DNA of 64,000 bases from contig NZ_BMZH01000007.1 in the NCBI RefSeq assembly GCF_014652695.1, positions 1-64,000 of the forward strand, in the 5' to 3' direction. Below are positions 11,657 through 45,962 of the stretch, in pieces. The translations under genes were made by a program, and so were the position numbers. A model generated the notes under the pieces. The model saw only the letters and a program-made list of their open reading frames with translations, did no database searches and had not been told where the DNA came from. Source of the stretch: Algimonas arctica (GTDB lineage: Bacteria > Pseudomonadota > Alphaproteobacteria > Caulobacterales > Maricaulaceae). Each line of letters opens with the position of its first letter. The stretch's first letter is position 1.

Positions 11657-12295
11657 TTATGGCGCGCGCGTCGAGACGGCGCGAGTGTTGGAGACAGCGT
11701 CCCAGTCAAATACTCCCCTTTTGCGTTCGCGTTTACGAAGGGCGAGAAGAATAGTCAGTGGATACAGGCAAAGTCCAAAGGCGCCATAACGAAAACGTCG
11801 GGCATAATTGGGGGGGCCGTCTGGTGCGGGTACAATTCGAAACCCCATCGTAAATTGGCCCAAGGTTGGGCGAGCCTCACGTACGCGACGTGTGTAGTAG
11901 AAGAAAGCGAACGCGAACCAAGCGTAATTAACAAGGAGGGGAATTATGTCCCGAAATTTTTCTTCTCTGTCCCAAGCCCATTGCCACTGTCCGGTGGCTG
12001 CCCACTCACAAATGTATGCGGTTGGCATAACCGTGACCATTATCACGCTAAATAGGAACCATCCATCAATTCCAAGTGCGAATAATCTGCGGATGAATCC
12101 GACATACTTTCCAATCTGGGTGGGAAGCACAGGTGTCGGCCACAAGAAACCTATAAGAGTAATCAGAGCGCAAGGAATAAGGAACAGGGGTTGCCCCTCA
12201 AGTGAGCCGCCCGGCCATCTGGGATTTCTAAGGTAAACGGACAGGGCGAACAGAGCAATCAACACAATACAAAGCAGGTGGCGATAATCTTTCAT
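11657..12295 (-). CDS. RDD family membrane protein
   Basis: A 212-residue protein with four to five hydrophobic segments. The RDD domain is seen as RRLFALGIDGWFLFSVIM (Arg and Asp in the first helix) and ARPTLGQFTMGFRIV (the conserved loop before the last helix pair). Two further helices lie at the N-terminus (LLCIVLIALFALSVYL and PLFLIPCALITLIGFLW). RDD proteins are integral membrane proteins, some of them ion transporters, but no substrate can be assigned. It ends at 11657, about 70 bases before the crotonase start, and begins 8 bases after the mutM stop. Confidence 0.82.
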   Translation of the reverse strand: MKDYRHLLCIVLIALFALSVYLRNPRWPGGSLEGQPLFLIPCALITLIGFLWPTPVLPTQIGKYVGFIRRLFALGIDGWFLFSVIMVTVMPTAYICEWAATGQWQWAWDREEKFRDIIPLLVNYAWFAFAFFYYTRRVREARPTLGQFTMGFRIVPAPDGPPNYARRFRYGAFGLCLYPLTILLALRKRERKRGVFDWDAVSNTRAVSTRAP

Positions 12296-12303
12296 TCCCC
12301 TCC

Positions 12304-13140
12304 CTACCGCTGACAGGCTCGACAGTAAAATGTGCTCCGTCCGCCCTGCACTTTGCGCAGGATTGGGGCGTCGCAGGTGACACAGGTCTCGCCCTCGCGA
12401 CCATAGACGGCGAAAGTTTTTTGGAAATAGCCGAGCGCGCCGTCGGCTTGGCGGTGATCACGTAAGGACGAACCGCCCGCTGCGATGGCCTCAACGAGGA
12501 CCTCTTTGATATGACGAACGAGGGTCTCTGTCTCGGCGACGGTGAGGCGGCCCGCGCCGCGTGCAGGGCTGATCCCGGCCCGAAACAGCGCTTCGCAGAC
12601 ATAGATGTTGCCAAGTCCGGCGACGATCTTCTGGTCCAGCAACGCGATTTTAATCGGACTTTTCTTGCCTTTGAGCCGCGCGCGCAGGTCGGGGGCGCTA
12701 AAATGGTTCGAGAGCGGCTCAGGGCCGAGGTCGTCCAAGCGGTAGGGTTCGCCAAAGCCGACCAGCTCCATAAAACCAAAGCGGCGTGGATCGTTATAGG
12801 TAACGGTGTTATCGTCTTCCGTCATGAAAATAACGTGGTGGTGTTTGGGATTGGCGTCGTGGGCGTGGGTGAACTCACCCAGTGACGCGCCGCCGAGAAT
12901 GAAGCGTCCACTCATGCCGAGATGCATGAATAGTCGCTCGCCGGAGGTCAGGTCCGCTTGCAGGAATTTGGCGCGGCGACTGAGCTTCTCAATGCGCTGC
13001 CCTTCGATGCGCGCGGCAAAATCCGGCGCAAACGGAAAGCGCAAGTTCGGGCGATTGAGCTGTACATGGGTAATCACGCGGCCTTCAAGGACGGGCGCAA
13101 GGCCCCGGCGGACCGTTTCAACTTCGGGGAGTTCAGGGAT
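12304..13140 (-). CDS. mutM: Formamidopyrimidine-DNA glycosylase with ATC at the start position
   Basis: Bifunctional glycosylase/AP lyase that removes 8-oxoguanine. The reading frame aligned to the family begins I-PELPEVETVRRGL, and family members begin M-PELPEVE with Pro2 as the catalytic nucleophile. The codon in the start position is ATC (13138-13140), and no ATG, GTG or TTG lies between it and the upstream TAA. A possible Shine-Dalgarno AAGAGA lies about 9 bases before the ATC. The next candidate start, GTG at 13077, would delete the catalytic Pro-Glu. The rest is intact: the RRAKFL lysine region, helix-two-turn-helix, and a C-terminal zinc finger CVTC...CRAC. Either ATC is used as a rare start, or there is a one-base mutation or error; 278 residues is normal length. 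Confidence 0.88.
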   Translation of the reverse strand: MPELPEVETVRRGLAPVLEGRVITHVQLNRPNLRFPFAPDFAARIEGQRIEKLSRRAKFLQADLTSGERLFMHLGMSGRFILGGASLGEFTHAHDANPKHHHVIFMTEDDNTVTYNDPRRFGFMELVGFGEPYRLDDLGPEPLSNHFSAPDLRARLKGKKSPIKIALLDQKIVAGLGNIYVCEALFRAGISPARGAGRLTVAETETLVRHIKEVLVEAIAAGGSSLRDHRQADGALGYFQKTFAVYGREGETCVTCDAPILRKVQGGRSTFYCRACQR

Positions 13141-13179
13141 GGCGGGTATCTCTTAAAAATGATGTCGACTGATAGAGCG

Positions 13180-13218
13180 GGAGATGGATTACTGAGTCAA
13201 GCTCAGTCATGAAGGGAG
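13180..13218 (+). repeat. REP-like palindrome, copy A (degenerate)
   Basis: GGAGATGGATTACTGAG, then loop TCAAG, then CTCAGTCATGAAGGGAG. The stem ACTGAG/CTCAGT lies at 13191-13196 and 13202-13207. It matches copy C in the GGAGATGGAT head, the TCAAG loop and the ATGAAGG tail, but the stem has diverged with some compensating changes. Confidence 0.75.
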
Positions 13219-13260
13219 AGCTTTGAATGACGTCTAGGATTGTTCCTAGCCTCTAAATCG

Positions 13261-13297
13261 CCTCCATCACCGAACTAGATTCGGTGATCCATCTCCG
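13261..13297 (-). repeat. REP-like palindrome, copy B (inverted)
   Basis: ATCACCGAA (13266-13274) pairs with TTCGGTGAT (13280-13288) around CTAGA, with CCATCTCCG following. Read on the minus strand it matches copy C in both flanks and nearly all of the stem. It lies 10 bases from the 3' end of the GIY-YIG gene. Confidence 0.85.
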
Positions 13298-13306
13298 AAG
13301 CTCACG

Positions 13307-13603
13307 TTAAGACAGATCACGCCAATCCAGAGTGATCTCCTGCCACTCAGGATTGTCTTTTTCGATAAGAGCAATTTTCCAAGACCGATTCCAGTCTTTC
13401 AACTGTTTCTCACGCCGCAAGGCTTCCCGGATCAAATCGTAAGTTTCGAAATAAACGAGGCGGTCAATATCATATTGGGCCGTGTGGCTGTTAGGGTTAG
13501 CCTTGTTTTTATGTTCCTGAACACGCTCATACAGCGATTTGGTGAAACCTATGTAGAGCGCGCCATTCTTGCGATTGCAAAGGATGTAGACGTAACCTCG
13601 CAT
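13307..13603 (-). CDS. GIY-YIG nuclease domain protein between REP-like repeats
   Basis: A 98-residue single-domain GIY-YIG endonuclease-like protein. It has the opening YVYILCNRKNGALYIG (the two catalytic strands), then the basic helix RVQEHKNK, then ETYDLIREALRREKQLKDW, which supplies the conserved Glu region. It is close in size to the UPF0213/YhbQ group. Inverted copies of one palindrome (13261-13297 and 13621-13660) bracket it within 20 bases on each side, so gene and repeats form a compact cassette of about 400 bases between mutM and grpE. The start is placed at the second Met (13603). Confidence 0.88.
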   Translation of the reverse strand: MRGYVYILCNRKNGALYIGFTKSLYERVQEHKNKANPNSHTAQYDIDRLVYFETYDLIREALRREKQLKDWNRSWKIALIEKDNPEWQEITLDWRDLS

Positions 13604-13620
13604 CATTTACGCAAAGGGTC

Positions 13621-13660
13621 GGAGATGGATCACCGAGTCAAGCTCGGTGATGAAGGAAGG
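13621..13660 (+). repeat. REP-like palindrome, copy C
   Basis: GGAGATGGATCACCGAG, loop TCAAG, CTCGGTGATGAAGGAAGG. The perfect 9-bp stem ATCACCGAG/CTCGGTGAT lies at 13629-13637 and 13643-13651. It lies just upstream of the GIY-YIG start and is inverted relative to copy B. Confidence 0.87.
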
Positions 13661-13691
13661 TCCTCTCTAACCCAAGCTGCCGCGAGACAAA

Positions 13692-14429
13692 TTACCCTGC
13701 CGGACCCGTGCTCACGGCGACCATGGCGGCGCGTAGCGTGCGGTCGCCGATGGTGAAACCCTGTTGCATGACGGCGGCGACATGGCCTTTTTCGATCTCG
13801 GGGTGCGGGATATTGGCTACGGCTTGATGCACGTTTGGATCAAATTTTGATCCTAAGCCCGCAACGGGTTTGATCTGGTGGCGGAGTAGCGCCGAGGTCA
13901 GGTCTTTTTCTGTCAGCTCAATACCTTCGACCAAATGGCGCGCATTATCGCCAAGCTCTTCTTTGGCTTGGCCATCAAGCGTCTGCAAAGCGCGCGAGAG
14001 ATTGTCATAAACAGACAGCACATCGGTGGCGAATTTTTCAACCCCGTAAACTTTGGCTTTCTGCACATCGCGTTCGGCGCGTTTACGAATATTATCGGCT
14101 TCGGCCATCGTCCGCAGCGCTTGATCTTTCATCGTCGCGATTTGCATTTCCAGCTCTTGAATCTTCGCCGCGCCGGCGTCGTTCATGCCCGCTTCGTCAG
14201 CGTCCATCTCGGATTCAGGGAAGGGCATGTCGTCCTCATCATCGGAGAGAACGTCGTTCTTATGCTTTTTCAAGAATGCATCGGCGGTGGCTTTTAAATC
14301 GGCAGGGCTAGGATTGCCGCGTGGGGCATCCGCGCGTCCGGACTGGCCTGTGCTCTCGCCTTCGATCTGCGCTTGCAGCGCATCCCATTCGTCCATGTCA
14401 CCATTACCATTGTCAGTATTATCGGCCAT
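13692..14429 (-). CDS. grpE: Nucleotide exchange factor GrpE
   Basis: Co-chaperone that releases ADP from DnaK. It is 245 residues from MADNTDNG, with an acidic disordered N-terminus and a long coiled coil (ELEMQIATMKDQALRTMAE). The GrpE signature is RALQTL...GIELTEKDL, followed by PVAGLGSKFDPNVHQAV and the beta-domain end QQGFTIGDRTLRAAMVAV. The N-terminal extension is longer than in E. coli, as is common in alphaproteobacteria. It follows hrcA by 20 bases on the same strand, a heat-shock operon. Confidence 0.96.
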   Translation of the reverse strand: MADNTDNGNGDMDEWDALQAQIEGESTGQSGRADAPRGNPSPADLKATADAFLKKHKNDVLSDDEDDMPFPESEMDADEAGMNDAGAAKIQELEMQIATMKDQALRTMAEADNIRKRAERDVQKAKVYGVEKFATDVLSVYDNLSRALQTLDGQAKEELGDNARHLVEGIELTEKDLTSALLRHQIKPVAGLGSKFDPNVHQAVANIPHPEIEKGHVAAVMQQGFTIGDRTLRAAMVAVSTGPAG

Positions 14430-14449
14430 TATTCTCTCGTCTTTCATTT

Positions 14450-15520
14450 CTATCTTCGCCGCGTCAGCGTTTCGCCGACTAGCTTCGCCGTCAAATCAAC
14501 CATTGGGATGACGCGACCATAATTGAGCCGTGTCGGCCCGATCACCCCGAGGGCGCCTAATAATGTCCCAGCCTGATCGCGGTAAGGCGCGATGACAACA
14601 CTGGAACTCGAAAGAGAGAACATGGGGTTCTCCGTCCCGATGAAAATCCTCACACCGTCCGCATGTTCTGTCTGGTCCAGCAAGGAGATTAAGTCCTCCT
14701 TGCGCTCCAAGTCCTCGAACAAATGTCTGATGCGCTCCAAGTCGGTTTGAGCGTCCAAATTGTCAAGGAGTCGCGCCTGTCCTCGGACGATCAATTTACG
14801 ATCTTTTGCAGGTTCATCCGACCAATTGGCGAGGCCTTGCTTGATGAGCGTAGCGGCCGCGATGTCAATCGCGGCGCGACCCTGCTCAATCTCGGTCAAA
14901 ATGTCCGCGCGCGCCTCCGATAGCTGTCGCCCCCGCAGGCGGGCGGAAAGGAAATTGCCCGCCCGTTCAAGGCTCGCGGACAGAACCCCCTCTGGTCGCG
15001 GCATCAGGCGGTTTTCAACGCGGCCATCCTCATGCACCATAACGACAAGGGTTCGACCATCATCCAGTCCGACAAATTCGACATGCGACAAGGCGGAGCG
15101 GCTCACAGGTTCAGGCGCCAGAACAAGGCCCGCGCCGCCCGCTAATCCCGCCAGCAGAGTCGAAGCTTCGTTAAAAATCTGATCCGGTTCGTGCCCGGAC
15201 GCGGCAATCTGTGCCTCGAGGCGTCTCCGTTCGTCTTGGGACACATCCCCAATTTCCAGCAAACCATCGATATAGAGGCGCAACCCGACGTGTGTCGGTT
15301 GCCGTCCGGCACTAATATGGGGGGATTGCAACAGGCCCATCTGGGTCAAATCCGCCATGACGGACCGGATCGAGGCGGGGGATAAGGCCGTGCCGGACAG
15401 GGCCAACGCTTTGGATCCCACGGGCAGACCTGTGTCCAGATAGGCCGAAACCACAGCGCCGAAAATATCGCGTGCGCGCGCGTCGAGATCACTCAGCGGA
15501 AATATGGCGGGCACAGGCAT
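14450..15520 (-). CDS. hrcA: Heat-inducible transcription repressor HrcA
   Basis: Represses groESL-type heat-shock genes by binding CIRCE. The 356-residue product has the N-terminal winged helix (ARDIFGAVVSAYLDTGLPVGSKAL, then SPASIRSVMADLTQMGLL and SAGRQPTHVGLRLYID) and the C-terminal GAF-like domain ending GVIGPTRLNYGRVIPMV. The start is put at the ATG at 15520 (MPVPAIFP); a TTG at 15550 is also possible and neither has a clear ribosome site. No CIRCE inverted repeat is visible in the hrcA-rph gap, so autoregulation through CIRCE is not supported here. It is divergent from rph. Confidence 0.95.
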   Translation of the reverse strand: MPVPAIFPLSDLDARARDIFGAVVSAYLDTGLPVGSKALALSGTALSPASIRSVMADLTQMGLLQSPHISAGRQPTHVGLRLYIDGLLEIGDVSQDERRRLEAQIAASGHEPDQIFNEASTLLAGLAGGAGLVLAPEPVSRSALSHVEFVGLDDGRTLVVMVHEDGRVENRLMPRPEGVLSASLERAGNFLSARLRGRQLSEARADILTEIEQGRAAIDIAAATLIKQGLANWSDEPAKDRKLIVRGQARLLDNLDAQTDLERIRHLFEDLERKEDLISLLDQTEHADGVRIFIGTENPMFSLSSSSVVIAPYRDQAGTLLGALGVIGPTRLNYGRVIPMVDLTAKLVGETLTRRR

Positions 15521-45693: not shown

Positions 45694-45939
45694 TTAAGAT
45701 TGAATAAGGGCCAGTTTTTCAGAACGCCGTAATTGTTTGATCGCATATTCCCGTTTGGACGCGGTGGATCGGCAATCTGCGGGTTCTGAGTAAATCATGG
45801 CGACGGGGCGACGGGCTTTCGTATATTTTGCACCGCGCCCCGCGTTATGGGTCGCCAGCCGCGCCACCGCATCCTTGGCGATCCCCGTATAAAGGGAGCC
45901 ATCCGCACAGCGCAGCATATAAACGGTCCAATCCGACAT
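45694..45939 (-). CDS. GIY-YIG domain protein (UPF0213/YhbQ type)
   Basis: An 81-residue GIY-YIG protein, with WTVYMLRCADGSLYTGIAKDA (the two motif strands, YxL and YTG, split by normal spacing), THNAGRGAKYTKARRPV and the Glu-containing helix ASKREYAIKQLRRSEK. This is the widespread YhbQ subtype. It is distinct from the GIY-YIG gene near 13.4 kb, and no REP-like repeats flank it. It begins 23 bases after the M28 peptidase stop on the same strand. Confidence 0.9.
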   Translation of the reverse strand: MSDWTVYMLRCADGSLYTGIAKDAVARLATHNAGRGAKYTKARRPVAMIYSEPADCRSTASKREYAIKQLRRSEKLALIQS

Positions 45940-45962
45940 AGCGCCTGTGTGACCGGGCGGTC

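Follow-up and report, generated by a model that had tools for sequence, protein, structure and literature searches.

Within a 64,000-nucleotide stretch of the Algimonas arctica genome (hereafter the window), a short GIY-YIG nuclease gene is enclosed by two inverted copies of a palindrome whose layout recalls that of REP elements. This raises the question of whether nuclease and palindromes belong together and, if so, whether they form a mobile unit.

Inverted palindromes bracket the GIY-YIG gene

The upstream arm, palindrome C, lies at 13621..13655 on the plus strand (13621-13660 in full). It consists of the stem ATCACCGAG/CTCGGTGAT (13629-13637 and 13643-13651) around the loop TCAAG (13638-13642), preceded by the tail GGAGATGG (13621-13628) and followed by the tag GAAG (13652-13655), i.e., CTTC on the other strand. 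The downstream arm, palindrome B, is inverted (13262..13296 on the minus strand; 13261-13297 in full), with stem halves at 13266-13274 and 13280-13288, a loop at 13275-13279, the tag CTCC at 13262-13265 and the tail CCATCTCC at 13289-13296. Both arms were recovered from the sequence itself, by repeat search, by pattern search and by folding. A third, decayed copy, palindrome A (13180..13214 on the plus strand; 13180-13218 in full), is located outside the arms with its tag toward B. Sequence and repeat search agree with the original prediction that B and C stand inverted around the gene and that A is a third, diverged copy. The predicted 9-bp stem and 5-base loop hold for B and C, whereas the stem of A contains one mismatch. 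Loop and tail had also been described as common to all three copies; here B differs, its loop and tail being TCTAG and ATGGAGG when read in the same direction as C.

The two arms comprise 38 nt each, are 89% complementary and lie 320 nt apart. A generic palindrome pattern occurs at three places in the 64 kb, namely A, B and C, compared to 0.03 expected, and none of 100 shuffled sequences reached three. DNA folding yielded z-scores of -4.5 for B and -4.7 for C, far better than shuffles, while A with -1.5 did not stand out from them. Across seven copies (A, B, C, an inverted dimer on contig C6 and two from the congener G014), 95.2% of stem cells pair and six cells have changed on both sides of the stem, a number equaled in 0 of 500 shuffles, which ignore relatedness. 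This supports stem changes that partly compensate each other, as had been anticipated. A search of positions 12000-15000 against Rfam gave no match at E ≤ 1.

The enclosed gene (13307..13606, minus strand; PF01541, E 1.1e-16) encodes a single-domain protein of 99 residues, one more than originally counted. Tags face outward and the CCATCTCC tails inward, and each hairpin stands within tens of bases of the gene. We propose a mobile unit of 394 bp on the minus strand that reaches from the outer tag of B to the outer tag of C (13262..13655), its boundaries being set after unit-to-unit homologies that end at tags (see below). Terminal inverted repeats around an enzyme gene are also what delimits an insertion sequence. 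The upstream neighbor of the unit is grpE (13692..14447, minus strand; PF01025). Downstream follows mutM, encoding formamidopyrimidine-DNA glycosylase (12304..13153, minus strand), as judged by profile match and comparison with congeners. Translation likely begins at ATC, a codon other than ATG, near 13153, ahead of the start at 13077 given by the mechanical ORF call; a conserved PELPEVE peptide was the reason for placing it there. In 10 of 17 congeners, mutM appears to begin with ATT or ATC, judging from the codon before PELPEVE, often in overlap with the grpE stop.

The nuclease is a single Slx1-like GIY-YIG domain

The invariant G, Y, G, R, E and N residues of relatives, i.e., the catalytic residues of GIY-YIG enzymes, are all present in the nuclease. 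Its profile matches are confined to GIY-YIG and the related T5orf172, a known transposase domain being absent. The structure model shows one confident domain (pLDDT 93.4) and no extra DNA-binding domain. Among solved structures, the UPF0213 protein 1zg2 is closest in fold (E 1.7e-4) as well as in sequence, followed by Slx1-Slx4 entries (E 9e-3 and weaker), and the closest PHROG profiles are homing endonucleases. The dN/dS ratio amounted to 0.04-0.17 in 11 of 14 pairs, the other three being saturated; by this measure, the nuclease is under strong purifying selection. A link to defence was considered and set aside, as PADLOC returned a single marginal match (PDC-S14, E 0.0059).

Each of the enzyme classes nearest to the nuclease differs from it in one respect or another. 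GIY-YIG homing endonucleases (I-TevI type and the homing PHROGs), some of which behave as mobile, share its catalytic domain. The window protein departs from them by its length of about 100 residues, by the lack of an extra DNA-binding domain in the model and by the palindromic inverted repeats at the bounds of its unit. Slx1, a structure-selective GIY-YIG nuclease, matches in fold, but is a cellular repair enzyme with a partner protein and has no link to repeats. Slx1-type enzymes act on branched DNA and the related At-HIGLE on cruciforms, as described in PMC9071465. UPF0213/YhbQ proteins are closest in solved sequence and fold through 1zg2, yet none of the ten YhbQ-type orthologues scored has flanking inverted repeats. 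The window itself offers an internal negative control in the form of a YhbQ-type GIY-YIG gene outside the unit (45706..45951, minus strand), which has none.

The palindromes resemble CGTC-tagged REPs

A 2013 survey describes CGTC REPs as repeats with stems of 8-9 bp that start with AT, loops of 4-5 nt and CCA tails, mostly arranged as head-head dimers with the tags outside; they are dispersed, multi-copy and mostly intergenic, include the tag variants TGTC and CCTC, and are common in Alphaproteobacteria (Di Nocera et al. 2013, PMC3733652). The same survey equates neisserial dRS3 and rickettsial RPE-4/RPE-6 with this class. The window palindromes are alike in stem, AT foot, loop, CCA tail, outer tag and head-head dimers: the stems of B and C have 9 bp and begin with AT, their loops have 5 nt, and the CCATCTCC tails of A, B and C supply the CCA. 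They are unlike in carrying CTTC and CTCC instead of a CGTC tag, which is absent from the window unit, and in numbering five copies in the genome (150 of 905 candidates scored). Judged from sequence, the window palindrome belongs in shape to the CGTC-tagged REP superfamily, save for tag and copy number. The REP-like label of the original prediction stands as far as layout is concerned, while the resemblance to this superfamily had been overlooked. A further difference is the enzyme. According to the survey, CGTC REPs "apparently lack a dedicated transposase", and GIY-YIG has 0 occurrences in its main text (PMC3733652), whereas the repeats studied here bracket a dedicated GIY-YIG gene.

A second point of comparison is provided by GTAG REPs and their RAYT/TnpA-REP enzymes (REPtrons, REPINs), which PMC6006769 describes with the same hallmarks: an enzyme flanked by its own REPs, dispersed inverted dimers and enzyme-REP specificity. 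In the window unit, a GIY-YIG domain replaces HuH/Y1 and a CGTC-like tag replaces GTAG; neither an HuH/Y1 gene nor a GTAG tag is found there. Another difference from REPtrons is that, for some pairs of distant units of the present kind, homology reaches as far as the tags. The unit would thus work like a REPtron and yet is none, because enzyme and tag differ. RAYTs had been likened to Tyr recombinases in the original prediction; they are HuH/Y1 transposases.

Few copies of the palindrome were found elsewhere in the genome

For the genome search, we built a covariance model from the seven copies and scored 150 of 905 first-look candidates, a scope at which weak, degenerate copies may escape. 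Five matches were obtained at E ≤ 0.05: A, B and C, and an inverted dimer with outward tags at C6:57819/57896. Further copies thus exist, as predicted, although only these two were found beyond the three of the window among the candidates scored. Contig C6, with its gene-less dimer, gave no PF01541 match. PF01541 matched four frames in the genome, i.e., the window nuclease, a paralogue on contig C20, the window YhbQ-type gene and a frame of 633 residues, which we take to be UvrC. The C20 paralogue is 57% identical to the window nuclease and has inverted arms as well (score 24, about 150 bp out), the loops of which read TCAAG/CTTGA.

The pairing extends beyond the window locus

With the window protein as query, matches turned up in 49 of 60 relatives; 70 strong ones (30 + 40) were taken, leaving about 40 further listed matches aside. 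Each locus was scored by the best inverted repeat between its 350 bp upstream and downstream flanks, with a cut-off of 16. An inverted repeat at or above this value was present at 42 of the 70 loci, compared to 11 of 400 mismatched flank pairs. Using ORF boundaries and adding the C20 paralogue, 40 of 71 loci had arms and 31 did not reach the cut-off.

A broader set was assembled by running an alignment of six sequences against named genome contigs. It gave at least 80 loci, picked by nuclease similarity alone, and 78 of 80 could be scored, two being skipped for short flanks. Among the loci listed, 54 of 78 had flanking inverted repeats and 24 fell below the cut-off; of the controls, 3 of 265 centres shifted within these loci and 16 of 300 pairs of mismatched flanks reached it. 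Flanking inverted repeats were absent at all 29 grpE control loci that were scored (one skipped) and at all 10 YhbQ orthologues, the best score of the latter being 14.5. The original idea, in which REP-like palindromes are served by a GIY-YIG nuclease instead of a RAYT, is supported by this excess and by the gene-specific arms described below, and neither outcome set down with it as refuting was observed; the pairing of GIY-YIG nuclease and inverted repeats is general and extends beyond the window locus.

Typical arms in the broad set read CGTCATTCCCGCGAAGGCGGGAATCCAG, and many have (C/T)GTC tags. By regular expression, the GTC tag pointed outward at 32, inward at 5 and both ways at 6 of the 55 loci with arms among those listed, and was absent from 12; the corresponding numbers for the 40 loci of the relatives were 18, 5, 1 and 16. 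Loci labelled as lying outside Alphaproteobacteria numbered 26 among those listed, 16 of them with arms. Those with arms include two isolates, Cupriavidus sp. AU9028 (L165) and Hanstruepera flava (L162); many others are MAGs.

Several observations concern related genes. A group of weak GIY-YIG matches (20 loci and the window YhbQ-type gene) had been chosen as a negative control and was dropped because 13 of the 21 loci carried inverted repeats, of another family containing CTCATCCTGAGG and CTCGAAGGACGAG; YhbQ orthologues and grpE were used in its place. Four YhbQ-type members of this group had no arms (scores 8 to 9). A second GIY-YIG subfamily with a GWSRAKKEALI motif (L080-L088, L090, L092-L097, L099) is likewise flanked by inverted repeats of that other family, at whose ends CTCATCCTGAGG and CTCGAAGGACGAG stand, and 11 of its 17 loci reached the cut-off. 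Two units on contigs labelled Acetothermia and Dehalococcoidia (L118/L172) are 90.6% identical over 415 bp, owing either to a transfer between phyla or to faulty binning. On a Planktothrix plasmid (L215), a related GIY-YIG gene with different flanking repeats has an MmeI-type restriction enzyme on one side and DISARM drmA on the other. In Neisseria gonorrhoeae, a GIY-YIG frame (L213; 59% identical) has eleven repeats of the dRS3 pattern, taken from PMC3898611, within 3.3 kb, one of which starts 9 bp after the GIY-YIG match. For meningococcal genomes, the same source reports about 650 to 725 dRS3 copies each (PMC3898611).

Arms are specific to their nuclease, and gene-less dimers share their orientation

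In genomes with several GIY-YIG loci, the two arms of a gene matched each other in 51 of 79 cases, compared to 13 of 180 when an arm was paired with the opposite arm of another gene. We also placed the loop type of the arms (4 or 5 nt) on a tree of 151 nucleases (20 of 171 dropped because of stops), in which few columns leave many forks unresolved. Loop type requires nine changes over 54 labelled rows, while 300 shuffles gave a mean of 18.4 and a minimum of 12, and shuffles within samples a mean of 17.1 and a minimum of 13. On this comparison of sequences, the loop type of the arms follows the nuclease tree.

In the 60 relatives, a REP pattern for loops of 5 nt matched at 275 places, 150 of which are listed. 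Adjacent matches within 150 bp, among those listed, formed 18 pairs with outward and one with inward tags. Head-head dimers thus predominate, as in CGTC REPs, and the C6 dimer is likewise tag-outward. At least 11 of the 150 listed matches have a GIY-YIG gene no more than about 600 bp away, compared to about 0.2 expected; the count is a lower bound from a subset of nuclease coordinates, the expectation being drawn from all 145 matches. The expected clustering of palindromes near GIY-YIG genes was hence recovered, and the suggested coexistence of autonomous and non-autonomous forms is matched by gene-less dimers that share the tag-outward orientation of gene-flanking arms. The best reading is that the nuclease unit is autonomous and the gene-less REP dimers are its non-autonomous form. 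In genome G020, many identical copies of GTCATCCTCCGGCTTGACCGGAGGACCCA are dispersed, two of which flank a GIY-YIG gene at C3:78945.

REP and nuclease counts correlate with a Spearman coefficient of 0.52, which ignores ancestry. Whole-genome copy counts are based on a single pattern and a single model. Two genomes (G013, G031) have three or more REP matches and no GIY-YIG match, a third (G049) has 13 REP matches and only one weak GIY-YIG match, and 28 genomes contain GIY-YIG with fewer than three matches to one REP pattern.

Filled and unfilled sites differ by the unit

The order grpE then mutM is found in 17 congeners, the window genome included. The gap between both genes measures 6 bp or less in ten and 45-64 bp in three of them, so that 13 of 17 have 64 bp or less; in G006 and G010 it holds 287 and 422 bp of other DNA. 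A GIY-YIG unit is present in 2 of the 17 (G000 and G014), the gene of G014 containing two stops. We propose that the grpE-mutM junction received the unit in an ancestor that the window genome shares with G014. A further junction, between fnrL and a response regulator, is found on Sphingobium plasmids: the filled query is covered in full length by seven records, and its middle is missing from four. In Azospirillum lipoferum 4B, sufB and sufC are separated by the nuclease gene, which a REP dimer flanks on either side; apart from this filled site, four relatives gave a shorter match, and the three that were fetched are annotated sufB-sufC without the gene. At all three junctions, the unit is hence present at some orthologous sites and absent from others, in support of the original prediction. 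Sinorhizobium K101 was left out of the count of unfilled sites, as its BLAST match continues through the nuclease gene. Across genomes, the nuclease is patchy and occupies different loci, with up to nine matches per genome and decayed copies containing stops.

The ends of the units can be approached through 23 short homologies between them. A GTC(A/G)T tag starts both members at the left in 10, at the right in 4 and at both ends in 2 of these, and at neither end in 11. In the clearest case (L127/L154), the homology of 365 bp starts precisely at CGTC and stops at GACG, the flanks being unrelated. A target-site duplication could not be made out at the unfilled sites, the intergenic parts of which are too diverged. 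Directly outside 92 outer tags, 99% of the bases at -1 are C or T. The share of G is 2-12% at positions -10 to -4, compared to 21-30% at 1557 non-hairpin GTCAT sites in these loci. Beyond both tags there is thus a symmetric tract of about 10 nt that is poor in G and rich in pyrimidines.

A probable small mobile unit bounded by its own REPs

We consider it likely that the unit in the window is mobile, small and bounded by REPs. It would belong to a widespread kind that combines a short, stand-alone GIY-YIG nuclease with inverted CGTC-type REPs of its own sequence family on both sides, and that spreads both as the unit and as gene-less dimers. As to the route, we infer that the nuclease, with its single Slx1-like, structure-selective GIY-YIG domain, would recognize the extruded hairpin or cruciform of its cognate palindrome and nick at or near the unpaired tag at the hairpin foot. 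The break, or a released hairpin-ended strand, may then be repaired into new sites, through which the nuclease unit and gene-less REP dimers would both spread.

The main rival concerns this spread step. In a homing-like process, the nuclease would cut a pre-existing solo palindrome, whose halves would then allow the gene to be copied in via recombination or microhomology repair, making the palindrome a target and not a transposon end. In two Sphingobium plasmids, TomTYG64 and TomTYG74 (L220, L222), the position that arm-gene-arm occupies in the filled plasmids holds one palindrome, footed at its two ends (GTCAC...GTGAC). This would fit homing, as would the homing endonucleases among the nearest PHROG profiles. 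However, deletion between short direct repeats inside both arms yields the same solo palindrome, and a central deletion has been proposed as the origin of 'double foot' REPs in PMC6006769. Furthermore, a palindrome is absent at the corresponding sites of TomTYG72 and TomTYG65 and at the closed grpE-mutM junctions viewed. We therefore regard homing into solo palindromes as possible though rather doubtful.

Two other readings leave the nuclease without a part in mobility, and we judge both improbable. The palindromes might act on the nuclease gene as transcription terminators or mRNA-stability elements, their spread being independent of the enzyme. REPs often lie 3' of genes and have been hypothesized as RNA elements (PMC3733652), and the hairpins stand close to the gene on both sides. 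The arms are, on the other hand, inverted copies of each other and specific per nuclease, copies and dimers occur elsewhere without the gene, and some of the homologies between unrelated contigs stop at the tags. Equally, the enzyme might be a structure-selective repair nuclease of the host, kept near REPs to clear cruciforms without mobility of its own. The Slx1-like fold and strong purifying selection would be expected of such an enzyme; its patchy presence at different loci, the differences at conserved junctions, the decayed copies with stops and the up to nine matches per genome speak against it. Lastly, that REPs abundant in intergenic DNA merely happen to flank small mobile genes is already disfavoured and scarcely credible, since the commonness of CGTC REPs in Alphaproteobacteria (PMC3733652) and the 16 of 300 mismatched flank pairs among the loci listed are set against 3 of 265 shifted centres among the same loci, 0 of 29 grpE and 0 of 10 YhbQ controls, and arms that are gene-specific within one genome.

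Implications for CGTC REPs

Returning to the REP-bounded mobile unit, repeats of such shape are already known and the GIY-YIG partner is the new part. In the open-access literature, subscription papers and preprints being beyond the scope of the search, we found no paper linking GIY-YIG to REPs, and to our knowledge this enzyme class is not known to drive bacterial transposition. Our data suggest that this GIY-YIG family is the missing partner of a widespread bacterial repeat class. On balance, we lean toward the broader view that stand-alone GIY-YIG nucleases are the dedicated mobilizing enzymes of the CGTC REP superfamily, dRS3-type repeats included, and that the GWSRAKKEALI group is paired likewise with different repeats. 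If true, this would define a class of prokaryotic mobile elements, unrelated to DDE, HuH, tyrosine and serine transposases, whose movement relies on a GIY-YIG enzyme that nicks hairpin ends in a structure-selective manner. What multiplies CGTC REPs was left open by the 2013 survey (PMC3733652), and a gene-specific GIY-YIG partner that tracks the phylogeny would be a concrete candidate for the enzyme behind it.
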